From the NCBI GenBank assembly GCA_936940865.1, contig CAKZJB010000224.1, positions 1 through 43,980 of the forward strand: a stretch of DNA of 43,980 nt, read 5' to 3'. The position numbers and the translations under genes are program-made. This document shows, piece after piece, positions 19,964 to 35,491 of this stretch (within the stretch, counting starts at the first letter, position 1; every line of letters starts with the position of its first letter). Source of the DNA: an uncultured Asticcacaulis sp. Lineage in GTDB: Bacteria > Pseudomonadota > Alphaproteobacteria > Caulobacterales > Caulobacteraceae. Under the pieces are notes generated by a model, which searched no databases, was not told where the DNA came from, and was given only the letters and a program-made list of their open reading frames with translations.

Positions 19964-20362
19964 TCAGTTCAACAGGATCGAGCCGATCAGCACCTTGGCG
20001 CCCGTTTGCCCGAGCACGGCATCCGTCGCAGCCTGAAGCTGCGCGGACAGATAGTCGGCGTCGACCATGCTCGAAGGCGTCAGGTTGGCGGCATAGGCCT
20101 GGAGGCGGCTGATATAGGCGTCCTTCAGCCGGGGCATGTACAACTTGATCCGGTCGACCATTTTCGGGTCCTTGGCGTACAGGCCCATGTCGAGGCTCAG
20201 GTTTCCGTGGCGGCCGGCCTGCGACGCCGTGAACACATTCAGCATCGGAAACTGGGTATAGCCCGGTCCGCCTCCCTTCTTCTTGGGTTCGGACGCGAGG
20301 GCCGGACCGGCCAGGAAGGCCGTGGACAGGACAAGACGGGCAAGGAAGCGGCGGCGATGCAT
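19964..20362 (-). CDS. Tat-exported small protein, FliL-like
   Basis: A 132-aa protein whose N-terminus MHRRRFLARLVLSTAFLAGPALA looks like a twin-arginine signal. The mature part (LSLDMGLYAKDPKMVDRIKL...LKDAYISRLQAYAAN) followed by the final VLIGSILLN resembles small FliL-like proteins: a beta strand, a long helix and a C-terminal strand. The family is poorly characterised and no flagellar gene is nearby. It is divergent from the response regulator gene across 168 bp. No function can be assigned. Confidence 0.6.
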   Translation of the reverse strand: MHRRRFLARLVLSTAFLAGPALASEPKKKGGGPGYTQFPMLNVFTASQAGRHGNLSLDMGLYAKDPKMVDRIKLYMPRLKDAYISRLQAYAANLTPSSMVDADYLSAQLQAATDAVLGQTGAKVLIGSILLN

Positions 20363-20530
20363 GGCAAGACGATAGGGGGTGAGCGGTTAAGGGAGCGTTG
20401 AGATACAATTTATGGAAATTTAACTATAAAAAACAAAGCATTGATCAACCGGCGATTAAGGGGTTTGTGGCAATGATGTCCGGTGGTGCGGCTTGGCCGC
20501 GCCAGGCTCTCCAGGCAAAAAGGCCACTGC

Positions 20531-21439
20531 ATGACTGCCCACCACGCCCACACGATGCGGCTGCTCAGCAAGATCGACTGCGCCCGTATTGCCGTGCTGG
20601 TCGTGGAGGACAACGATGCCTCTCGCTGCCTGGTCATAGAGCTTCTGCGCGCTTCCGGCTTCGACAATATCAACTTTGCGCGCGACGCCGAAGAGGCGGT
20701 CGAGCAGATGCAGGGGCACAATCCCGACATCCTTCTGCTCGACTGGAACCTGCCGGGCATGTCGGGACTGGAACTCGTGCGCCAGATCCGAGGCGCTGCC
20801 CACAAGAACGACATTCGTTTCACCAATCCCGAAGTGCCGATCGTCATGCTGACGGCGCGCCAGCGCGCGCGCGACGTGACCGCGGCGCGCAATGCCGGCG
20901 TCAACGCCTTCGTGGTCAAGCCTTTCTCGACGACGTCGCTGCTCAAGGCGGTGTGCGGCTCGCTGACCCGCAAGCGCCGCTTTGTCGCCGAGCCGGCCTA
21001 TACCGGACCCGACCGCCGCCGGCGCAAGGCCGAAAATTATCCGGGCCTGCTGCAGCGCGCCGAGGATATGGCGGCCGTGGCGCCGCCGCACCCGCGCAAG
21101 GCCTCGAGTCTCGAATTGGACGGCCTGCGCGATTCCCTGAAGTCCGGCGGCCGCCTGGCCGCCCGCGAGGTCGAACGCAAGGTCCGCGACCTGGTCGACG
21201 CCGAACGCAAGGCGCAGGAAATCCGGCTGGGTCTGATGGAACGCGCCGCCCAGTCGCTCAACGCCTATATCGGACTGTTCGGCCGCGAGGCCGATGCCGA
21301 GGTCGTCGACGTCCATCTCGACGCCCTGATCCGCCTTAACGAGGTGCCGCACGGCCAGGAAATCCTGGCCGACGGTATCGTCCGCCATCTCGACACCCTG
21401 GTCGCCAAGCGCACCGAGGGCCGGAAATCGCTGGCATGA
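20531..21439 (+). CDS. Response regulator with uncharacterised C-terminal region
   Basis: A 302-aa protein with an N-terminal CheY-like receiver (about 20-145): acidic pair Glu26-Asp27, phosphoacceptor Asp71 in LLLDWNLPG, the Thr of MLTARQ and Lys in VVKPFS. A linker with TGPDRRRRKAE follows, a GPDRR element seen after receivers in several alphaproteobacterial regulators. Then comes an alpha-helical, charged C-terminus of about 140 aa with no DNA-binding or enzyme motif. AAAGG 7 nt before the ATG at 20531 supports this start. Its TGA overlaps the next ATG (ATGA at 21436), so it is translationally coupled to the first of two tandem paralogues. No kinase is adjacent. The C-terminus may bind a protein partner. 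Confidence 0.8.
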   Translation: MTAHHAHTMRLLSKIDCARIAVLVVEDNDASRCLVIELLRASGFDNINFARDAEEAVEQMQGHNPDILLLDWNLPGMSGLELVRQIRGAAHKNDIRFTNPEVPIVMLTARQRARDVTAARNAGVNAFVVKPFSTTSLLKAVCGSLTRKRRFVAEPAYTGPDRRRRKAENYPGLLQRAEDMAAVAPPHPRKASSLELDGLRDSLKSGGRLAAREVERKVRDLVDAERKAQEIRLGLMERAAQSLNAYIGLFGREADAEVVDVHLDALIRLNEVPHGQEILADGIVRHLDTLVAKRTEGRKSLA

Positions 21440-22608
21440 ATGCATTCATCTCGAACTCCGCCGCCACCCAGGCCGCCCAGAACGTCAACAACCGCGATGT
21501 GCGCAACCTGGCCAATCTTGGCGAGCGCGCCTCTACCAGCCGCGTTTTGAACCTGTCGCACATCTACCTGACCTCTTCGCGCGAAAAAGAATATCAACTC
21601 CGGCCGTTCTTCCGCGACTCGCAGCTCAACAAATGCATTCTGGTCAAGCATACGTTGCGCACCAACGAGCGCGACCTGTTCGGCCGGAACAGGCGCACGG
21701 CGACAAAGATCATCCTGCCGTTCGATCCACACGACCTTAAGCTGGGCGGCCGATCCATCCTGGTCAACCAGGTGGGCTTCGACGGCTTCTGCCGCAGCTA
21801 TTTCGGCATCGACGACGTCATGGCGATTCCGGATATCCAGATTCTTCGCCTGCTCGACCAGTTGCCGTCGCTCGACCCCTTCCTGGTCCGCGAGCACTTG
21901 AGCCGCAACGGTTTCAAGCCCGGCGCCTGTTACCTCAAGATCTCGCCATTCGATGTCCAGCGCATGGTCGGCTTCGCCAATGCCGAAATCGAGCGTCTGG
22001 TCGTCACGGCCTTCGGCGACGGCTTTGCCGGCGATGCCGGCGTTAAGCTGACCGGCAAGATCCTGGCCGACGAACTCGACAAGGAACTGGCGCCGTTGCG
22101 GCGCGTACTGCGCATGTCGGAAGACGAATTCTCCGATGGCATCTTTTCCTGGCGCGGCTTCCTTTATTTCAAGTGGCGCCACCTGGAGCTTCAGGACGAG
22201 ATGCGCAAGGTGCTTGAGGGCCTGGCCACCTATCAGCCGCAAGGCGCGGCCGACGAGGCCCTGCGCGAATACCTGCGCGAGGTCCGCCCGCGCCTGGCGC
22301 GCAAGATCGTCGACGCCATCGCCAATGTCGGCCGCACCATGGCGGTCTACGACCAGGCCTACCATGCCCTGGTCGAGGGCGAGAATGCCGGACCGTTCCG
22401 CCGCTTCCTGCTCGACGGACCTGAGCTGTTCTTCGAACTGGGCGAAAATATCGGGATATTGAGCCACATCGGTTCCTTCTGGTCTTACCGGATGAACCAG
22501 GCGCTGGACCACCAACGCCTGTCGCCGATGGAATACGCAGATATCCTTATGGATTTCGAAGACTCATTGGCCGTGGTCGGCGGGATGGAAGACGAGAGGC
22601 GGGCATAG
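21436..22608 (+). CDS. Uncharacterised protein, first of two tandem paralogues
   Basis: A 390-aa soluble protein that I do not recognise. It shares collinear blocks with the next gene: RNLANLGERASTSRVLNLSH near the N-terminus, KIILPFDPHDLKLGGR near 95, LLDQLPSLDPFLVREHL near 145, WRGFLYFKW near 238, PFRRFLLDGPELFFELGENI near 322 and EYADILMDFEDSL near the C-terminus. No signal peptide, membrane helix, nucleotide-binding loop or zinc-binding cluster is visible. The start overlaps the stop of the response regulator gene, which suggests a shared complex or pathway. The stop lies inside a terminator hairpin. A regulatory or output role downstream of the receiver is inferred only from linkage. Confidence 0.85.
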   Translation: MNAFISNSAATQAAQNVNNRDVRNLANLGERASTSRVLNLSHIYLTSSREKEYQLRPFFRDSQLNKCILVKHTLRTNERDLFGRNRRTATKIILPFDPHDLKLGGRSILVNQVGFDGFCRSYFGIDDVMAIPDIQILRLLDQLPSLDPFLVREHLSRNGFKPGACYLKISPFDVQRMVGFANAEIERLVVTAFGDGFAGDAGVKLTGKILADELDKELAPLRRVLRMSEDEFSDGIFSWRGFLYFKWRHLELQDEMRKVLEGLATYQPQGAADEALREYLREVRPRLARKIVDAIANVGRTMAVYDQAYHALVEGENAGPFRRFLLDGPELFFELGENIGILSHIGSFWSYRMNQALDHQRLSPMEYADILMDFEDSLAVVGGMEDERRA

Positions 22609-22620
22609 GCCCGCCTTTTT
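22598..22620 (+). terminator. Intrinsic terminator overlapping the stop of the first paralogue
   Basis: GGCGGGC (22598-22604) pairs with GCCCGCC (22609-22615), followed by five T. The loop ATAG contains part of the UAG stop. A ribosome finishing the first paralogue would cover the hairpin, so termination may depend on translation. Confidence 0.7.
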
Positions 22621-22638
22621 AGTTAAGGAAGAGTAACC

Positions 22639-23808
22639 TTGTTCATAGAAGCCCCCATCATGGCCCGCCTGGCCGACAGCAGTTTCAACTCCACGCGGGA
22701 ACTGCGCAACCTGGCGCACCTGACACATGGGGGATCGAGCGACCGCATCCTCAATCTGTCGCGCATCTACCGGCAGTTCCGCGACGACGACGACTACAAG
22801 GAAAATCCGCTCTTCGAGAATTCGGCGCTGAACCGTGCCATCATCATCAAGCACAATCTGCGCGTCGATGAACGTCATCTGTTCCCGTCCACCCGCCAGA
22901 CCGTGACCAAGGTCATCCTGCCTTTCGATCCCTATGATCTGTCGCTGGGCGGGCGCACCCTGTTCGTGCGCCAGCAGCACTTCGAGCAACTGGTCAAGAC
23001 CTATCTGTCGATCGAGGACCTGCTGAAGAGCCGCGACATCGATATCCTGCGCACGCTCGACAGCCTGCCGTCGCTCGATCCCTTTCTGCTGCGCCAGCAC
23101 CTGCTGCGCATCAATGTCCGGCCGTCACCGAAATATTTCCAGATTTCGCCGGACGATCTCAAAAGCATGGGGGCTTTTACGGCGCAGGAAGTCGAAAACC
23201 TCGTCATGGCCGCGCTTGGCGGAGAGGCCATGCAGGGGGCGGCCCGCCTCGGCAAAAAGATCCTGTCCGACGATCTCGATCGCGAGCTTTGGCCTCTAAA
23301 GGAAACGCTGAACATGACCGACGAGCAGTTTTCGAACGGCATCACCTGCTGGCGCGGATTCCTTTATTACAAGTGGGCCTATGTCCGGCTGCAGGACCAG
23401 ATCCGCGAAGTCATGGCGGGCCTGTCGGGCTACAAGCCGGTGGCGACCCACGACGACGTCGTGCGCAACTATCTCAAGCGGTCGCGGCCGCGCGTAGCCA
23501 AGGCCCTGGTCAAGACCATCCAGGAAAGCGGCAAGCTTCTGGAACGTTATGACGAGGTCTATCAGGCGATGGCGGTCGACCGTAACCCTGAACCCTTCCG
23601 CCGCTTCCTGATGCAGGGATCGACCCTGTTCCTGCAACTCGGCGAAAAGCTGGGGATTCTCAACCACATCGTGTCATTCTGGAATTTCCGCATGGCCCGG
23701 GTGCTGGCCAACAATTCCAGACCGCTGGAAAGCGTCGAATACGCCGACATCCTGGTCGACTTCGAGGCCAGCCTGTTTCCGTCGTTCGCTCACGATCAGC
23801 AGGGGTAG
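22639..23808 (+). CDS. Uncharacterised protein, second tandem paralogue (TTG start)
   Basis: A 389-aa protein homologous throughout to the preceding gene. It shares RNLAHLTHGGSSDRILNLSR, KVILPFDPYDLSLGGR, LDSLPSLDPFLLRQHL, the WRGFLYYKW block and EYADILVDFEASL. Both end just after the ADIL.DFE motif, so this is a full-length duplication that has diverged rather than a fragment. A TTG start at 22639 is favoured because AAGGA lies about 9 nt upstream; the first ATG (22660) has no ribosome-binding site. No known domain is seen. Separation from its sister by a terminator suggests lower or conditional expression. Confidence 0.82.
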   Translation: MFIEAPIMARLADSSFNSTRELRNLAHLTHGGSSDRILNLSRIYRQFRDDDDYKENPLFENSALNRAIIIKHNLRVDERHLFPSTRQTVTKVILPFDPYDLSLGGRTLFVRQQHFEQLVKTYLSIEDLLKSRDIDILRTLDSLPSLDPFLLRQHLLRINVRPSPKYFQISPDDLKSMGAFTAQEVENLVMAALGGEAMQGAARLGKKILSDDLDRELWPLKETLNMTDEQFSNGITCWRGFLYYKWAYVRLQDQIREVMAGLSGYKPVATHDDVVRNYLKRSRPRVAKALVKTIQESGKLLERYDEVYQAMAVDRNPEPFRRFLMQGSTLFLQLGEKLGILNHIVSFWNFRMARVLANNSRPLESVEYADILVDFEASLFPSFAHDQQG

Positions 23809-28540: not shown

Positions 28541-29236
28541 ATGCTCGAGAAGAAAAACACGATCCTGATTGTGGATGACGAAGAAGAAATCCGCAAAATG
28601 CTCAGCATTTTTCTTGATGCGGCGGACTTCAAGGTCTGCGAATGCGACAGCGGCAAACAGGCCCTGCGTCTCTCGGCTTCGGTGCGTCCCGACCTGATCC
28701 TGCTCGACCTCGGCCTGCCCGATATCGACGGCAAGGAGGTCATTGCCAAGATTCGCGAATGGTCGAATGTTCCCATCGTCGTCCTGACGGCGCGCGCCGA
28801 GGATTCGGACGCTGCGCCCGCGCTCAATACCGGGGCCGACGACTATGTCACCAAGCCTTTCAGCGCCGAGGTCCTTCTGGCGCGCATCAATGCCAACCTG
28901 CGCAAATCGGCGGTCAAGGAAGTGGGCGAGCCCGAAATCGTCCACGGCCCTATCCGCATGGATCTGGTGCGCCACGAAGTTTATATCGACAACGAGCGCG
29001 TGGCCTTTACGCCGAAGGAATACGACCTCCTGCGCTACTTCCTGGTCAATCGCGGCCGCATGCTGACGCACAAGCAGATTCTGAAGGAGGTATGGGGCCC
29101 CGCCCACCTCGAGGATACGCAGTACCTGCGCGTCTATATCGGCCAGGTCCGCGACAAGCTTGAAACCCGTGAGGGCCTCGGCAAGTCGATCGTGTCGGAA
29201 TCTGGCATAGGTTACCGCATGGACCTCGTCGAATAA
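28541..29236 (+). CDS. KdpE-type OmpR-family response regulator
   Basis: A 231-aa DNA-binding response regulator. The receiver has Asp12-Asp13, phosphoacceptor Asp56 in ILLDLGLPD, Thr83 and Lys105 in VTKPFS. The C-terminal winged helix has FTPKEYDLLRYFLVNRGRML and the KdpE-like sequence WGPAHLEDTQYLRVYIGQVRDKLE. KdpE controls the potassium ATPase kdpFABC, but no kdp structural gene is in the window. A kinase with a KdpD-like core lies 560 bp away on the other strand. The target genes may therefore be different. An A/T-rich promoter region (28440-28500) precedes the gene, and a terminator follows it. Confidence 0.88.
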   Translation: MLEKKNTILIVDDEEEIRKMLSIFLDAADFKVCECDSGKQALRLSASVRPDLILLDLGLPDIDGKEVIAKIREWSNVPIVVLTARAEDSDAAPALNTGADDYVTKPFSAEVLLARINANLRKSAVKEVGEPEIVHGPIRMDLVRHEVYIDNERVAFTPKEYDLLRYFLVNRGRMLTHKQILKEVWGPAHLEDTQYLRVYIGQVRDKLETREGLGKSIVSESGIGYRMDLVE

Positions 29237-29268
29237 TGCCGCTTTTTCCCCTGAGTGCCGATGACTGG

Positions 29269-29297
29269 CCCCGATGCGCAAGCACCGGGGTTTTCTT
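29269..29297 (+). terminator. Intrinsic terminator of the KdpE-type gene
   Basis: A 9-position stem with one mismatch (29269-29277 with 29282-29290) and a GCAA loop is followed by TTTTCTTTT. Confidence 0.8.
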
Positions 29298-29429
29298 TTG
29301 ACCGGCTTATGTCGTTCTTACGTAAGGGCTTTCTGACGCCTTTTGTATATTTACGGCCGTTTTTCTAGGCTGAATGCAGATGACAAGGCGCGGCACAAGG
29401 TTCGCGCTCCGTTGCAAGTGGAGGCTTTC

Positions 29430-29612
29430 ATGCTGAACTGGATTGTTACCTTCTTCATCCTGGCCGTCATCGCGGCCTTCCTGGGCTTTACGGGCATGGC
29501 GGGCACGTTCGCGTCGATCGCCAAGTTCATCGCCGTTATCTTCGTGGTGCTGTTCGTCGCCAGTCTGGTCTACCGGATGATCACCGGCCGCAGCGTCAAT
29601 CCGCCGCTATAA
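29430..29612 (+). CDS. DUF1328 (YtjA-like) small membrane protein
   Basis: A 60-aa protein with two transmembrane helices (MLNWIVTFFILAVIAAFLGF and SIAKFIAVIFVVLFVASLVY), joined by a Gly-rich turn and ending in a short basic tail. This is the DUF1328/YtjA pattern. GTGGAGG 5 nt before the ATG fixes the start. Members are often induced by envelope or general stress; the function is unknown. It stands alone, with a terminator 18 bp downstream. Confidence 0.88.
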   Translation: MLNWIVTFFILAVIAAFLGFTGMAGTFASIAKFIAVIFVVLFVASLVYRMITGRSVNPPL

Positions 29613-29629
29613 GCGACGGTAAAACGAGA

Positions 29630-29658
29630 AAGCCCCGCACGCGTGCGGGGCTTTTTTA
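29630..29658 (+). terminator. Intrinsic terminator of the DUF1328 gene
   Basis: A 10-bp stem (29631-29640 with 29643-29652) with a tight GC loop is followed by TTTTTT. The A-run on the 5' side also lets it act on the minus strand. The following 29659-29799 shows no gene. Confidence 0.9.
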
Positions 29659-29799
29659 TTGGGCGTCGGCAAATATTCCGGAGACACGAACTTTGGCGAG
29701 GCCTCCGGCCCGCCCCAAACGCTTTCGCAATGCAGAGGCCAGAGCCGGGTCGGGTGCGTGCGCCATGCAGCGCGGGACCTGACAAGCATATCGCGAGCC

Positions 29800-30555
29800 T
29801 TATGCCCGATGGTCGCGGTAGAACAGGGTAAATACGGCGCCGCCTTCCGGATGGTTGGTCAGTTCGATGCGACCATCCAGAAGCTTCATGATATGCCGGC
29901 AGATGGTCAGGCCTAGCCCCGTGCCGGCATTCTGCTGATCGGCGCGCTGCAGCCGCATGTACTTGTCGAAGACCATGGCCTGCTTGTCCTGCGGAATGCC
30001 GTCGCCGTGGTCGCGGATGCGGACGAAGCCCTCATTGCCGGTCACGCCGTGTTCGATCTCGACATAGGGGTCTTCGCCGCCGTATTTGCGGATGCCGTGC
30101 TTGAAGGCGTTATGCAGCACCAGGCCGATAGCGCGGCTGCCCAGCATGGGATCGGTCCAGATCTCGTCGTGGTCGCCTACAGCGCGGATTTCAAGTTCGC
30201 CGCGGGTCTTGAGCGGCCCCAGGCGCGACAGGCTGTCCTGGATCATCTGGCCCATGCGGCAGGCCTCGAAACGCGGCTTGACGGCCGACGCCTCGAACTT
30301 GGCCATGTCGAGGATGTTGGTGATGAAATAGTCGAGCCGGAAGGCCTCGGTCAGGGCCGAACTGATAAGGGAGCGCCGCTTCTCTTCGGGAAGCTTGTCG
30401 TACAGCATGGTCATGACCTCAAGCGAGCCGATGATGGTCGCCAGCGGTGTCTTCAGGTCATGGGAAACCGACGACAGCATCTGCCGGTGCAGATATTCGC
30501 GCATCTCGTCATGCGAAAGCGATGACAGGTCGTCGGGGATCATGCTCGGGTTCAT
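29800..30555 (-). CDS. Soluble KdpD-like histidine kinase core
   Basis: A 251-aa cytoplasmic kinase with only the HisKA and HATPase domains. The phosphorylated His32 lies in SVSHDLKTPLATIIGSLEVM, close to the KdpD box. An HNAFKHG N-box, RIRDHGDGIP and GTGLGLTICRHI ATP-binding boxes follow. No membrane segment, KdpD/Usp sensor or PAS domain precedes it. I placed the start at ATG 30555; a TTG at 30579 is also open and neither has a good ribosome-binding site. It faces the KdpE-type regulator gene across the DUF1328 gene and is its likely partner. How such a kinase senses its signal is unclear. Confidence 0.82.
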   Translation of the reverse strand: MNPSMIPDDLSSLSHDEMREYLHRQMLSSVSHDLKTPLATIIGSLEVMTMLYDKLPEEKRRSLISSALTEAFRLDYFITNILDMAKFEASAVKPRFEACRMGQMIQDSLSRLGPLKTRGELEIRAVGDHDEIWTDPMLGSRAIGLVLHNAFKHGIRKYGGEDPYVEIEHGVTGNEGFVRIRDHGDGIPQDKQAMVFDKYMRLQRADQQNAGTGLGLTICRHIMKLLDGRIELTNHPEGGAVFTLFYRDHRA

Positions 30556-30643
30556 AACAACAATGCTCGCCACAGGCAATGAACCCTGATGCCGAAACGG
30601 ACCGGAAAAGGCGAAGCCGACATCCAGGCGCGGCCTGCCGGGT

Positions 30644-31003
30644 TCAAAGGCCGGCGCTGGATGATCGGGTGTCGTTGCGATTCTGCGGCTTCTGATGATC
30701 GGCGGCCGCCTTGACGTCTTCGGAGGCCTCGGAAATCGCCGAGGACGCGGCGTCTCCCGCCTTCGATACAGCGGACACGGTGGCGGATCCGGCGCGTGAC
30801 AGGGCTGTGCCGGCGCTGGAGACGGTCGAACTGTCCGTCAGCTCGCTGGTCGCGCTCGCGACCGTCGCAGCGCCAGAATTGATTGCGGCGCCCAGCTTTT
30901 CCTCCGGTGTGCGACGATCGTGGCGATTCAGCAGCCAGGCGGCCGCGAAGACGATCAGGAGCAGGACGACGGCGGTGGACAGGAGGCGTCCGAGAACGTT
31001 CAT
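30644..31003 (-). CDS. Membrane-anchored Ala/Ser-rich small protein
   Basis: A 119-aa protein with one N-terminal helix (LLSTAVVLLLIVFAAAWLL), then a basic turn (NRHDRRTPEEKLGAAI) and a helical Ala/Ser/Thr/Val-rich stretch with loose repeats such as SAGTALSRAGSATVSAVSKA. The composition recalls stress-related helical proteins that line the membrane. It is third in a run of minus-strand small genes (31362-30644) spaced 29 and 12 bp apart. I do not recognise the family. Confidence 0.65.
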   Translation of the reverse strand: MNVLGRLLSTAVVLLLIVFAAAWLLNRHDRRTPEEKLGAAINSGAATVASATSELTDSSTVSSAGTALSRAGSATVSAVSKAGDAASSAISEASEDVKAAADHQKPQNRNDTRSSSAGL

Positions 31004-31015
31004 CCGCGTGCGTCC

Positions 31016-31183
31016 CTATTCGTCGATATGCCCGGCGATCGACTTGAATACCGCCAGTTCGTCCTGGTCTTCCTGGGGATCGAACAGTTCGGGCGGCAGA
31101 TCGTCGTCATAAATATCGCCGTCATAGCGGACCTGGTGAGCATAGTCGGGCTTGCGGTCGGGAACGGGGTAGGGGGTGGACAT
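31016..31183 (-). CDS. Small acidic protein, unrecognised
   Basis: A 55-aa protein with many Asp, Glu and Pro residues: an MSTPYPVPDRKPDY start, a central DGDIYDDDLPPELFDPQEDQ and a possible short helix ELAVFKSIAGHIDE. GGAG 6 nt before the ATG supports translation. It lies 12 bp upstream of the Ala/Ser-rich membrane protein. Length and composition suggest a disordered accessory protein; no domain is recognised. Confidence 0.55.
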   Translation of the reverse strand: MSTPYPVPDRKPDYAHQVRYDGDIYDDDLPPELFDPQEDQDELAVFKSIAGHIDE

Positions 31184-31212
31184 GGGATCTCCGGGAAAAG
31201 CAGGATTTGCGG

Positions 31213-31362
31213 TCAGATTTCCGGACGGTCGACCGGCGGAATATCGGGCAGGACGTCAGGAGGCAGGCCTTCAGGAGGGGCAACGGGATCGTTGGCCGGG
31301 ACTTCGGGCTCGGTGACGTCCGGATCGGGCGGATCGTTGGGGCCGGGCTGAATGATGGACAT
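31213..31362 (-). CDS. Small Pro-rich protein, unrecognised
   Basis: A 49-aa protein in which roughly a third of residues are Pro, with acidic residues between (PNDPPDPDVTEPEVPANDP). It has no signal peptide or helix. AGGGG 7 nt before the ATG supports it as a gene. It heads the run of three small minus-strand genes. It is probably disordered; whether the protein is made needs expression data. Confidence 0.5.
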   Translation of the reverse strand: MSIIQPGPNDPPDPDVTEPEVPANDPVAPPEGLPPDVLPDIPPVDRPEI

Positions 31363-31488
31363 ATGAAATCCCCTGTCGGTGCGATGCGTGCCGACGATAG
31401 GGAAAAGCCTGCAAAGGCTCAGTGTCTAAGCGGGAAAGCGCCTGTAAGGAGCCGGTAAGAGGGGTTTGTAAACCGGACCGACCGTCGT

Positions 31489-33183
31489 TTAGCGCAGCTG
31501 GCCGAGCTTCAGCGCCAGGATGTCGGGCAGGACGGGCTTCGAGATATAATCGTCCATGCCGGCCTGCAGGCAACGCTCGCGGTCGCCGGCCAGCGCATGG
31601 GCCGTCACCCCGATTATGGTGTTGCGGTAACCGCGGCCGGTGGCTTCCTTGGCGGCCTCGAGGTCGCGAATCCAGCGCGTGGTTTCCAGTCCGTCCATGC
31701 CCTGCATCTGCACGTCCATCAGGATGGCGTAGTGCGGGCCGGATGCCGCCTTGATGATGTCGATGGCCTCGGTGCCCGAAGCCGCCGACACGGTGTCGTA
31801 ACCCAGCTCTTCCAGCATCAGGCTGAGAACCATGATGTTGGGCGCATAGTCCTCGACGATGAGGACGCACGGACGGCCGTTTTCACCCAGCACCGGCCTG
31901 TGCACCGTACGCGGCGTGAGCAGCGATGACAGCGACGCCGGAAGCGGACGCACGGCCGGTGTATTGTCCTGGACCTCCTGCTTGCCGGCGCGCGCCTGGC
32001 GCAGGTTGACGAAGAAGCTCGATCCTTCGCCCTGGCGGCTTTCGACGCGGATCGTGCCGCCCATCAGTTCGACCAGCGACCGCGCGATCGACAGGCCCAG
32101 CCCCGAGCCGCCGAAGCGCCGCGTAATGGTTTCGTCGGCCTGGGTGAACTTGTCGAAGATCAGCGGCAGTTTCTCGGCCGGGATGCCGATGCCGGTATCG
32201 CGCACGCTGAGGTCCAGGACGACGTGATCGTCGCCGTCGGACCGGGTTTCGGCCGAGATGACGATGCGGCCTTCGTCGGTGAATTTGAGTGCATTGCTGA
32301 CCAGATTCATCAGAACCTGTTGCAGGCGCGTGCGGTCGCCCATCAGCACGTCGCCATGGGTATGGTCGGCCAGTTCGAGGTGCAGGCCCTTGCGGCTGGC
32401 GTCCGGCTCGAACATCAGGTGGATGTCCTTGAGAATCTCGGCCGGCTGGTACCGTATGGTCTCCAGCGCCACGCGGTCGTCCTCTATGCGGCTGATGTCG
32501 AGCAGGTCGTTGATCAGCTTGAGCAGCAGGTCGGCGTTGGTGCGCAGGGTCTCGACGATCTTCTTCTGGTCATCGTTGAGCTGCGACTTGGCCAGCACGG
32601 TCGCAAGCCCCGTGACGACGTTCATCGGCGTGCGGATTTCGTGGCTCATGGTCGCCAGGAAGCGGCTTTTGGCCTCGCTGGCCTGTTCGGCGCGCTCCTT
32701 GGCCAGCATCAGTTCCTCGCGCTGGCGGGCGTTTTCGCGCAGCAGCATTTCCTTCGTATAGGCCGCCTGCATGATGGCGGGCAAAAGGTCGAGATAGGTC
32801 TGGTTGACGTCCTTCACCGCATAGTCGGCGGCGCCGCGCTGCAGGGCTTCGAGTGCGATGCGCTCATCGCCGCCCACGGTCAGGATGACCGCCGGCGGGG
32901 AATCCGGGATGGCATTGAGCTTTTCCAGGAATTCGAGCCCGCTCATGCCGGGCAGGTTATAGTCGACCAGCAGCAGGTCGTAGCGCTGGCCGTCGGTAAT
33001 GACCTGCAAGGCCTGTTCCGCCGTACCGGCCGTATCGACCTTCAGGCCGGCCCGGTCCATGCGTTTCTGCAGCAGGCGCGCAAGGGCTGCGTCGTCCTCG
33101 ATATAGAGGATGGTCTGCATGCCCGACTGCGGCTGAGCATTGGGGTCCGGATCGGCATCAAGCGGCATCAGGGTATCAGTCAT
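31489..33183 (-). CDS. Receiver-HisKA-HATPase-receiver hybrid histidine kinase
   Basis: A 564-aa cytoplasmic hybrid kinase with no membrane segment. Order: N-terminal receiver (about 22-140, Asp74 in LLVDYNLPG), coiled linker (145-172), HisKA with His181 in ATMSHEIRTPMN, HATPase with NLVSNALKF, RDTGIGIP and GGSGLGLSIA (about 280-395), then a C-terminal receiver (438-560, Asp490 in AILMDVQMQGMDG). The ATG at 33183 overlaps the end of the preceding receiver gene by 8 bp, so the two are coupled. Input is probably phosphotransfer to the N-terminal receiver rather than a ligand. Output would need a histidine phosphotransferase, not found here. Confidence 0.9.
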   Translation of the reverse strand: MTDTLMPLDADPDPNAQPQSGMQTILYIEDDAALARLLQKRMDRAGLKVDTAGTAEQALQVITDGQRYDLLLVDYNLPGMSGLEFLEKLNAIPDSPPAVILTVGGDERIALEALQRGAADYAVKDVNQTYLDLLPAIMQAAYTKEMLLRENARQREELMLAKERAEQASEAKSRFLATMSHEIRTPMNVVTGLATVLAKSQLNDDQKKIVETLRTNADLLLKLINDLLDISRIEDDRVALETIRYQPAEILKDIHLMFEPDASRKGLHLELADHTHGDVLMGDRTRLQQVLMNLVSNALKFTDEGRIVISAETRSDGDDHVVLDLSVRDTGIGIPAEKLPLIFDKFTQADETITRRFGGSGLGLSIARSLVELMGGTIRVESRQGEGSSFFVNLRQARAGKQEVQDNTPAVRPLPASLSSLLTPRTVHRPVLGENGRPCVLIVEDYAPNIMVLSLMLEELGYDTVSAASGTEAIDIIKAASGPHYAILMDVQMQGMDGLETTRWIRDLEAAKEATGRGYRNTIIGVTAHALAGDRERCLQAGMDDYISKPVLPDILALKLGQLR

Positions 33184-33622
33184 GGATATGGGGCACGCGC
33201 ACAACGGTCATCATCAAGCCGAGCTTGCGGATGGCCTCGGAAAATTCGTCATAGCCCACGGGCTTGGTCATGAATACGTTGCAGCCCAGGGCGTAACACC
33301 GATCGATATCGCGCGGGGCGTCGGTGGTGGTCAGAATAACCACGGGCATGCGCCGCGTCGCCTCGTTGGCCTTGAGGTGGCGCAGGATTTCGAAACCGTC
33401 GATGTCCGGCAGATTGAGATCGAGCACCGCCACCATGCGGTCGTAGGGGCGGTCGGGCTGGTCGGCGCCGAAGAAATACTCCAGGGCGGCGGCGCCCGAC
33501 GACAGGTGTTCGATCGGATTCTGCACGCCGACGCGCTTCAGGTTGCGCTTTATCAGACTGGCATGGCCCGCGTCGTCTTCGACGAGAACGATGGAGAAGG
33601 GATCTTCGAACTGGCTGATCAT
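33176..33622 (-). CDS. Single-domain response regulator (Rcp1-like)
   Basis: A 148-aa stand-alone receiver with Glu15-Asp16-Asp17, phosphoacceptor Asp68 in AVLDLNLPD, the TTTDAPRD stretch and Lys in FMTKPVGYDEF. The long loop between beta3 and beta4 (RHLKANEATRRMPVVILTT) is typical of Rcp1/CheY-like regulators paired with phytochrome-like kinases. It lies 21 bp after the CHASE3 kinase and overlaps the hybrid kinase gene. It probably carries phosphate between the two kinases. Confidence 0.9.
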   Translation of the reverse strand: MISQFEDPFSIVLVEDDAGHASLIKRNLKRVGVQNPIEHLSSGAAALEYFFGADQPDRPYDRMVAVLDLNLPDIDGFEILRHLKANEATRRMPVVILTTTDAPRDIDRCYALGCNVFMTKPVGYDEFSEAIRKLGLMMTVVRVPHIHD

Positions 33623-33643
33623 GATGGTTCCTGATGGCCTTCC

Positions 33644-35491
33644 TCAGCTGGCCAGTGCACGGGTTTCGGCCGTGTCGTTGCTTGCCGCCGGCGGCACCTT
33701 TCTCGGCAGGCTGAAATGGAAGGTGGTGCCGATTCCGACATTCGATTCGAACCAGATGGCGCCTGACATTTTGCGCAGGGTCGCCTTGACGAAAGCCATG
33801 CCGAGGCCGAGGCCCCGCACGTCGCCGGTATTGCGGGCGCGCCGGAAGATGTGGAATACCTTCTGGCTGTCTTCGGGTTCGATGCCGCGGCCGTTGTCGC
33901 GGACGGAAAAGATGTAGTCCCGCGCGGTTTCCTGGGCCGAAATCTCGATGTGGCCCGGCCGGTCGGGCTGGAGGTACTTGACGGCGTTGTCGAGCAGGTT
34001 GGAGAAGATCTGTTCCAGCGCCAGGGGGTCGGTGACCAGGTCGGGCATGTCGCCGATAACCACCTCGACCGCCTTCGCCGTGATTTCGTAACTTTGCGCG
34101 CCCAGGCACTTGTCCAGGATGGCGCGCGAACTGACCAGTTCTTCGCGATAGACGTACTTGCCGATACGCGACAGGTCGAGGATGGCGGTGGTCAGGGTGT
34201 CCATGCGGTCCACGGCATTGCCTATGAAGCCGAGCGCTTCCGGGATGTCGAGCTTAAGCACGGTTTGCAGCCGCGCCCAGGTTTTTTCGCCCAGCTTGTC
34301 ACTGGCCGGCTCCAGAATCTGGTTGAGCTCGTCGACGGCCAGCGACAGCTCATGGCTGAAGCCCTTGAGGTTGACGAGCGGTGAACGCATGTCGTGCGAG
34401 GTAATGTAGGTAAAGGCCTCCATGTCGGCGTGGAGTTGCTTGAATTCCTCCTCGCGCTGCTTCTGTTCGGTGATGTCGGTATGCGTGCCGATCAGGGTGC
34501 GGATCTGGCCGAACTTGTCCCAGACGCCGACACCGCGGGACATGACCCAGCGCCACGTACCGTCGCGGTGGCGCATGCGGAAGATGTTATTGTAGAGCGG
34601 GGTCTGGCGCATGATGTACTGGCGCCGGATCTCCAGCATCTGGGCGACATCGTCGGGATGAATCATGGCGATGACGCCTTCGGGCGTCAGCTCCAGTTCA
34701 TGGTCCTCATAGCCCAGCATCGCCTTGAATTCCTTGGAGGCGAAGAAAGTCTCCGTAATGAAGTTGAGCTCATACAGGCCGTCGTTGATGCCATTCATCA
34801 CCATGCGGAAGCGGGCTTCAGCCTTGCGGTTCTCGTCCTCGATGGTTTCGTTCTCGGACTCCAGCTTGATGATGGTCACCGTGCCGGCCAGCACGATGCC
34901 GATGCCCAGGATCGAGCCGATAATCAGGATGTAGATGAAGTTGGCCTTCTGGGAGTCGACGTCCTTGATGTGCTTTTCCAGGTCGACCAGGCGCGCCTTG
35001 ACGCTTTTGTCCATCAATTCGCGAAGCGCGTCCATGCGCTGGCGCTGCACTTCCAGATCGGCGACCGAGACCGCGCCGCGGCCATGCGCCTGGACCGCGG
35101 CCACCTGGGTATTGAGCAGCTTTTGCAGGTCCTCTATGCGATCCAGCCAGATATTTGTCTCGGCGAAGAAGGCGCCGTCGTTATAGGTGGCGTTGCGCAG
35201 GCCGAACAGTTCGGCACGCACCTGGCCGCTGACCTTGGCGTAGGTTTCGAGGAATTTCGGGTCGGCGGAAATGACATAGCCGCGCACGCCTGTTTCCATG
35301 TCGACGAGGTCGAGCAGGATCAGCCGCGTCTGGCGGATCGCCTCATACTGCCGGATGGTATAGGCGTTCAGTTCCTCGACCGTACGGTACTGGTTGTAGA
35401 TGATCATGGTGAAGGAACACAGGGCGATGGACACGATGCTGAAGAACGCCAGATAAAGGTGTTTGACGTTTATGCCCCAGGGTAACCACAT
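33644..35491 (-). CDS. CHASE3-PAS membrane histidine kinase
   Basis: A 615-aa sensor kinase. Transmembrane helix 1 is about 11-32; the periplasmic CHASE3 domain is about 40-180 (VDMETGVRGYVISADPKFLETY is diagnostic). Helix 2 is 185-208, a coiled coil follows, then a PAS domain with PAC motif (about 225-345, TWRWVMSRGVGVWD...GTHTDITEQK). HisKA has His366 in YITSHDMRSPL, and the HATPase has LLDNAVKYL and RDNGRGIE. The histidine box matches phytochrome-type kinases, which fits the Rcp1-like partner that follows. It heads a three-gene phosphorelay operon. CHASE3 ligands are unknown. Confidence 0.92.
   Translation of the reverse strand: MWLPWGINVKHLYLAFFSIVSIALCSFTMIIYNQYRTVEELNAYTIRQYEAIRQTRLILLDLVDMETGVRGYVISADPKFLETYAKVSGQVRAELFGLRNATYNDGAFFAETNIWLDRIEDLQKLLNTQVAAVQAHGRGAVSVADLEVQRQRMDALRELMDKSVKARLVDLEKHIKDVDSQKANFIYILIIGSILGIGIVLAGTVTIIKLESENETIEDENRKAEARFRMVMNGINDGLYELNFITETFFASKEFKAMLGYEDHELELTPEGVIAMIHPDDVAQMLEIRRQYIMRQTPLYNNIFRMRHRDGTWRWVMSRGVGVWDKFGQIRTLIGTHTDITEQKQREEEFKQLHADMEAFTYITSHDMRSPLVNLKGFSHELSLAVDELNQILEPASDKLGEKTWARLQTVLKLDIPEALGFIGNAVDRMDTLTTAILDLSRIGKYVYREELVSSRAILDKCLGAQSYEITAKAVEVVIGDMPDLVTDPLALEQIFSNLLDNAVKYLQPDRPGHIEISAQETARDYIFSVRDNGRGIEPEDSQKVFHIFRRARNTGDVRGLGLGMAFVKATLRKMSGAIWFESNVGIGTTFHFSLPRKVPPAASNDTAETRALAS

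Follow-up and report, generated by a model that had tools for sequence, protein, structure and literature searches.

The window analysed here spans the whole of contig C224 (43,980 bases), which belongs to a 5.07-Mb Asticcacaulis genome (G000). At 20531-23808 it carries a response-regulator gene followed by two tandem paralogues, A and B, of a family of ~390 amino acids (aa) that we refer to as CC3101-like (Table 1). The regulator gene and A share an ATGA overlap at 21436-21439. The initial annotation of this DNA had described these three genes and their overlap, and both are real. The four motif blocks that it had listed (PFDPxDLxLGGR, LPSLDPFL, WRGFLYxKW and EYADILxDFE) are likewise collinear in A and B. 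An alternative in-frame GTG start of the regulator is possible at 20483. The genome holds a third copy of the family on another contig (C144), with 58% identity to A.

Table 1. Features at the regulator-A-B locus (positions in the window; ARR, arginine-rich region; CTR, C-terminal region; c-di-GMP, cyclic di-GMP; pLDDT, predicted local distance difference test; pTM, predicted template modelling score).
Feature	Position	Strand	Description
Divergent neighbour, 132 aa, probably exported, weakly FliL-like	19964-20362	-	Same position in 15/17 Asticcacaulis loci
Predicted Cle-type response regulator, 302 aa from ATG	20531-21439	+	Receiver (residues 22-141), ARR, helical CTR
ARR, about residues 149-180, predicted c-di-GMP site	20975-21070	+	Match to CleD peptide 6sft_A
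Helical CTR of the regulator	21071-21436	+	Predicted helices 177-301
Paralogue A of the CC3101-like family, 390 aa	21436-22608	+	Predicted fold, pLDDT 88.0, pTM 0.83
Terminator-like hairpin and T5 around the A stop codon	22598-22620	+	Folding, z -3.53
Paralogue B	22660-23808 (ATG, 382 aa) or from 22639 (TTG, 389 aa)	+	47% identical to A (363 columns, E 1e-125)

The receiver part of the regulator (residues 22-141) matched Pfam Response_reg at E 1.1e-25, no other Pfam family was matched by the protein up to E 1, and its best PDB matches were CheY (E 2.8e-18). The usual phosphorylation-site set is present (E26, D27, D71, T108 and K130). In the alignment, W72 and F127 lie at candidate positions for contact with the flagellar switch protein FliM, which we take to be the positions of CheY W58 and Y106. 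When 177,635 PDB sequences were searched, the segment behind the receiver aligned without gaps to the ARR peptide of CleD, 6sft_A (E 0.0035); with the whole C-terminal part as query, 6sft was matched at E 0.034. CleD is CC3100 of Caulobacter crescentus. According to the part of the Cle study available to us (PMC5677366), it binds FliM, and one CleD binds two c-di-GMP. In the same source, CleD R156A peptides lose c-di-GMP binding, R169A peptides bind about five-fold more weakly and R113 in alpha4 is needed for function. The same paper reports that the ARRs of CleB, CleC, CleD and CleE bind c-di-GMP by themselves and that the CleA ARR does so in combination with its CTR. The alignment places R120, R163 and R176 of the window regulator at CleD R113, R156 and R169, and these positions are Arg in 14/17, 17/17 and 17/17 Asticcacaulis regulators, respectively. 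D71 is kept in all 17; CleD has Glu at that position. The receiver is not of an unrecognised kind: its sequence suggests a Cle-type, CheY-like receiver that is a predicted c-di-GMP effector.

The helical C-terminus noted at the outset was borne out by the predicted model of the regulator, in which helices span residues 177-301 (block-mean pLDDT about 46-83, pTM 0.55). Profile comparison detected no similarity between the window-type CTR and the CTR of CleD-type proteins. In a tree of 24 regulator rows, the window type and CleD formed separate clades (support 96/97 and 100/99), whose sister position was supported at 83/94 only. The window regulator lies outside the CleD clade and is not a CleD orthologue; the same genome carries a separate member of the CleD clade on contig C4.

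A and B proved to be an intact pair from an uncharacterised family, as had been suggested. Neither matched a Pfam or NCBIfam model at cut-off, the best matches being FdsD (0.049) and DUF4070 (0.053), both at chance level. Ten distant members had no Pfam match above cut-off, and the same was found in NCBIfam for nine distant members and one from the genus g32 introduced below. When profiles were run against PDB sequences (E up to 10), the only match was a designed protein at 0.028. The AlphaFold2 model of A (mean pLDDT 88.0), built from 74 sequences (two from the window and 72 of 97 listed from other loci), predicts four short strands in the N-terminal part and helices only in the C-terminal half. 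Foldseek comparison of this model with the PDB gave nothing at E <= 0.001 (best 0.29). The profile and structure searches that had been recommended for A and B thus returned no clear match to a characterised family. Over the 74 rows, conservation reaches 95% or more at 26 polar or aromatic positions, and R36, K71, H72, R75, E78, K91, D147, W239 and W247 are among those invariant in all 74. No secretion signal was seen by eye in A or B. A viral or mobile origin was rejected: no viral contig matched peptide patterns of A, BFVD gave no Foldseek match of A at E <= 0.001, and PHROG gave no match for A or B up to E 0.1. The Hmr proteins, as described in the available part of PMC11481889, were also rejected as an identity for A and B.

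We compared the gene neighbourhood across genomes, calling genes in the compared loci with a simple codon-position script rather than a standard gene finder; the script called no family gene in 2/50 non-Asticcacaulis loci (L091, L092) and 2/40 distant loci (L177, L182). The regulator gene directly precedes A in 25/25 Asticcacaulis genomes, and a B copy follows A in 24/25, the exception being G010. Conservation at this level indicates that the linkage between regulator and A is more than chance. The two genes overlap by 4 bases in 10/16 loci and by 1 base in one, and are separated by gaps of 11 to 52 bases in five. Overlap in 11 of the 16 fits stoichiometric assembly of the two proteins. In Asticcacaulis sp. 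AC402, an extra family copy lies between purA (assigned by Pfam) and a cleD orthologue, one gene from cleD.

A second linkage was found in genus g32, which we infer from the CleD match to be Caulobacter. The family is present in 49 of the 61 g32 genomes examined; 48 of these have a copy and a cleD-like gene on one strand, the copy coming first at a distance of 44-367 bp. All 48 cleD-adjacent genes were matched by a profile headed by A at E 2.8e-127 or lower, which indicates full-length homology to A and B. A single family match was found in 38/49 family-bearing genomes. The cleD-like gene itself was detected at E 1e-25 or better in 56 g32 genomes; genome G235 has the family and no cleD-like gene. 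In G133, the cleD-like peptide is identical to 6sft in 33/35 letters (E 7e-17), and CleD E70, R113, R156 and R169 fall on E, R, R and R in the g32 gene with a constant offset of two. On the basis of the peptide match and these four residues, the g32 gene was taken as cleD. The separate clades of CleD and the window-type regulators mean that the family is linked to two distinct Cle-type genes. The idea that the receiver gene always comes first held in 25/25 Asticcacaulis genomes, but in g32 the order is family gene, then cleD (48/49). A purA-like gene, recognised by its N-terminus, lies just before or one gene from the family gene in 4/6 g32 stretches (L137-L140). In some g32 genomes a hybrid histidine kinase gene lies just before the family gene and cleD (L136:10538-12259 (-), L138, L139); its assignment is by Pfam for L136, with neighbours identified by size and sequence start.

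The cleD-adjacent family gene of C. crescentus is probably CC3101, an assignment based on the adjacency of its locus number to CC3100. In a 2007 survey (PMC2241609, Table 5), CC3101 appears as a hypothetical signature protein and is assigned to Caulobacter, Oceanicaulis and Maricaulis alone. If the assignment to CC3101 is right, the family, initially described as unrecognised, already stands in print in that table, and the range given there is too narrow; among open-licence papers, we found no study or characterisation of it. The family is present in 36/61 relatives including the window genome, in 189/249 genomes of the window's taxonomic family and in 47/385 genomes drawn from the class, where the weakest matches are short, with E near 0.001. 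Each Asticcacaulis genome has 2 to 5 matches, with tandem pairs, and one relative from the order has up to 8, some at contig ends. A quick-search tree of 82 chosen rows (six flagged as long, including L062; 25/79 inner branches open) placed the Asticcacaulis copies in one clade (99) apart from the g32 copies, so that the genus seems to have expanded its copies itself. Interrupted copies, with a stop inside or in pieces, occur at G020:C1:1705792-1706892 and G035:C1:1621797-1622539, a sign that copies may be undergoing loss in some lineages. Long open frames in L151, L152 and L153 suggested fusions, which were not accepted. Among the 40 distant loci, one (G331) has the family gene after cheA, cheW, cheB and cheR on the same strand; this gene lies about 150 bases from the contig end, and the taxonomic family of G331 consists of one genome.

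The family co-occurs with FliM. In the window's taxonomic family, FliM was detected in 182/189 family-positive and 45/60 family-negative genomes. In genus g31, both FliM-positive genomes carry the family and 14/14 FliM-negative genomes have no match. The FliM-negative status of G261 and G264 was found by elimination from the list of positives. The small gene diverging from the regulator looks weakly FliL-like on sequence, and its product has a signal-like N-terminus by eye. The window protein does not reach the FliL cut-off (NCBIfam PRK12785, 17.9 bits vs a cut-off of 197, E 0.002). Two NCBIfam FliL models appeared at E up to 5 in 8/15 and 3/15 members of the neighbour family (best E 0.002 and 0.0025), and Pfam FliL in 1/15 (E 0.0043, not the window protein). 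Four Brevundimonas loci (L067, L071, L074, L114) and L144 also carry relatives of the neighbour, at a distance of about 2.6 to 6 kb from the family gene. The other compared non-Asticcacaulis loci had no relative at E 1e-3 except L226, where a weak one (E 4.8e-4), with a FliL match at E 6.4e-5 that is below cut-off, lies ~2.5 kb from an ARR gene.

We tentatively propose, with a confidence just short of even, that the locus encodes a Cle-type effector together with dedicated cytoplasmic partners of the CC3101-like family that act in motor and attachment control. By analogy with CleD, c-di-GMP would bind the ARR when its level rises, the bound ARR would reshape the alpha4-beta5-alpha5 face of the receiver, and the reshaped receiver would bind FliM. 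The gene linkage suggests that a CC3101-like protein may be made beside the effector through translational coupling and bind it. A, and perhaps B, might then set the stability, localisation or output of the effector at the motor as cells pass from swimming to attachment. This proposal draws on the ARR similarity, the kept arginines and the linkage to two different Cle-type genes, with further support from the che-operon member, the co-occurrence with FliM and the weakly FliL-like neighbour. In the accessible portion of PMC7534056, CleD is placed on the outer side of the C ring, and the parts of the literature at hand describe no Cle partner besides FliM. Pilus-mediated attachment is reduced in a mutant lacking CleA-E, as stated in the section of PMC6581867 available to us, so the effector may also act elsewhere than at the motor.

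Several observations weigh against this proposal. In a search of all called genes, with the ARR-like motif widened to include GPC, a receiver-ARR gene was found near the family gene in 1/50 non-Asticcacaulis loci (L101, two genes away) and 0/40 distant loci; among 15 additional loci from other relatives, one (L145) had such a gene, five genes away. The conserved receiver linkage that had been anticipated holds in Asticcacaulis and g32; most of these other loci lack it. In eight g32 genomes a cleD-like gene is present but the family is not matched, and 15/63 g32 family copies are unlinked. In the window genome, purA and the cleD orthologue lie near each other with no family gene beside them. 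The eight g32 genomes with cleD alone, and the window genome with no family gene beside its cleD orthologue, imply that CleD does not need the family. The FliM association, both in the class sample (41/47 family-positive vs 172/338 family-negative genomes; odds ratio 6.6, Fisher p 1.2e-6) and in the window's taxonomic family and g31, is uncorrected for kinship and genome size. In addition, FliM went undetected in seven genomes of the window's taxonomic family that have a family match, a fragment in one case. All FliL matches of the neighbour are far below cut-off and stand alongside other chance-level families, and Pfam listed MDMPI_N for more members (3/15) than FliL (1/15). The ARR adds to these points. 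Its motif is exact in the first copy of the window protein (YTGPDRR) and degenerate in the second (YPGLLQR). Of the 17 Asticcacaulis regulators, 7 carry the exact first half, 9 have GPC there and 1 has SPE; the second half is mostly GLL, GVL, GIL or GLM, with GP in L044 only. With the second half degenerate and the first exact in 7/17, c-di-GMP binding may be weak or lost. The GPC variant also occurs in two ARR proteins of g32 genome G133 (L225, L226).

It is somewhat unlikely that the linkage reflects only shared expression or lineage-specific history and that the family proteins have a role of their own, as an enzyme or a regulator. Tight same-strand spacing in 25/25 and 48/49 genomes, across two genera and two Cle lineages with opposite gene order, speaks against this, whereas the varied neighbours of copies across the taxonomic family and in other Alphaproteobacteria, the small number of those copies with a receiver-ARR gene near, and the eight g32 genomes with cleD alone would be expected from it. 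The invariant residues named above (R36 to W247) could form an active or ligand site of such a protein. A distinctly unlikely alternative is that the window regulator has turned into a receiver that is driven by phosphorylation and has A and B as its output, with c-di-GMP no longer relevant. The acceptor D71 in 17/17 regulators where CleD has Glu, the presence of T108 and K130 in the window protein, the CheY proteins as best PDB matches and the degenerate second ARR half are all consistent with this. Against it, two of the three CleD-equivalent arginines (R163 and R176) are kept in every Asticcacaulis regulator and R120 in 14/17. Moreover, CleA has an acceptor Asp, yet its D67A variant still functions and its ARR mutant does not, in the part of PMC5677366 available. 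We consider it very improbable that the family proteins are lineage-expanded elements, such as competing paralogues or selfish pairs, instead of Cle partners. The 2 to 5 matches and tandem pairs per Asticcacaulis genome, the up to 8 in the order relative, the interrupted copies and the single Asticcacaulis clade could be read in this way, but A stands with the regulator in 25/25 Asticcacaulis genomes, and most family-bearing g32 genomes (38/49) have a single match.

The hairpin after A bears on how B is expressed. It has a 7-bp G/C stem with the A stop codon in its loop, followed by five T, and the surrounding segment 22580-22635 folds at -20.9 kcal/mol (0/200 shuffles as good). A terminator scan did not list it, and none of the other 14 A-B spacers folded showed a comparable hairpin with a T run on visual inspection. 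Such a hairpin at the stop codon means that B may be expressed partly apart from A, and suggests that the level of B in the window is lower or set separately. Some Asticcacaulis A-B spacers contain a 25-base palindrome, CCAAAAANCGCNGCACACTTTTTGG, perhaps a repeat element (L041:11177-11201, L045:11193-11217, L004, L009 and L034; L004 and L034 cover the genome region of L045, and L009 that of L041). It is absent from the window, even allowing 3 mismatches. Elsewhere in the window, a two-component gene cluster at 28541-35491 encodes a receiver with Trans_reg_C, a histidine kinase core, a kinase with two receiver stretches, a short receiver-like open reading frame (by eye) and a CHASE3-PAS kinase.

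The family may supply a partner so far missing from the account of how swimming cells turn to life on surfaces. It is widespread and has no Pfam or NCBIfam model, and its cleD-adjacent member is a candidate that can be tested directly in a model organism. We think it rather unlikely that the CC3101-like family amounts to a new, widespread alphaproteobacterial class of partners for Cle-type and chemotaxis outputs, through which c-di-GMP control would act via a second protein besides FliM, with a fold new among solved structures. The initial annotation had named this the strongest candidate for an undescribed signalling module in the window. The Cle class itself is known, and the neighbouring family is apparently an unstudied component of known signalling and not a new kind of signalling.

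Comparison with known systems places the locus close to CleD. The window regulator shares with CleD and the Cle class a CheY-like receiver, an ARR with equivalents of R113, R156 and R169 and a variable C-terminal region, and like CleD it adjoins a member of the ~390-aa family. It differs from CleD in having Asp where CleD has Glu, in its degenerate second ARR half, in a CTR without similarity and in its position outside the CleD clade, and the gene order relative to the family gene is reversed. CC3101 differs from A and B in that most g32 genomes have a single match, compared to the pair in the window. FssA and FssB are, like A and B, formerly uncharacterised proteins, in their case of Caulobacter and tied to motor and attachment signalling. 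In contrast to A and B, in which none was seen, both are reported with a secretion signal in the available part of PMC7885107, and they were rejected as the identity of A and B on this ground.

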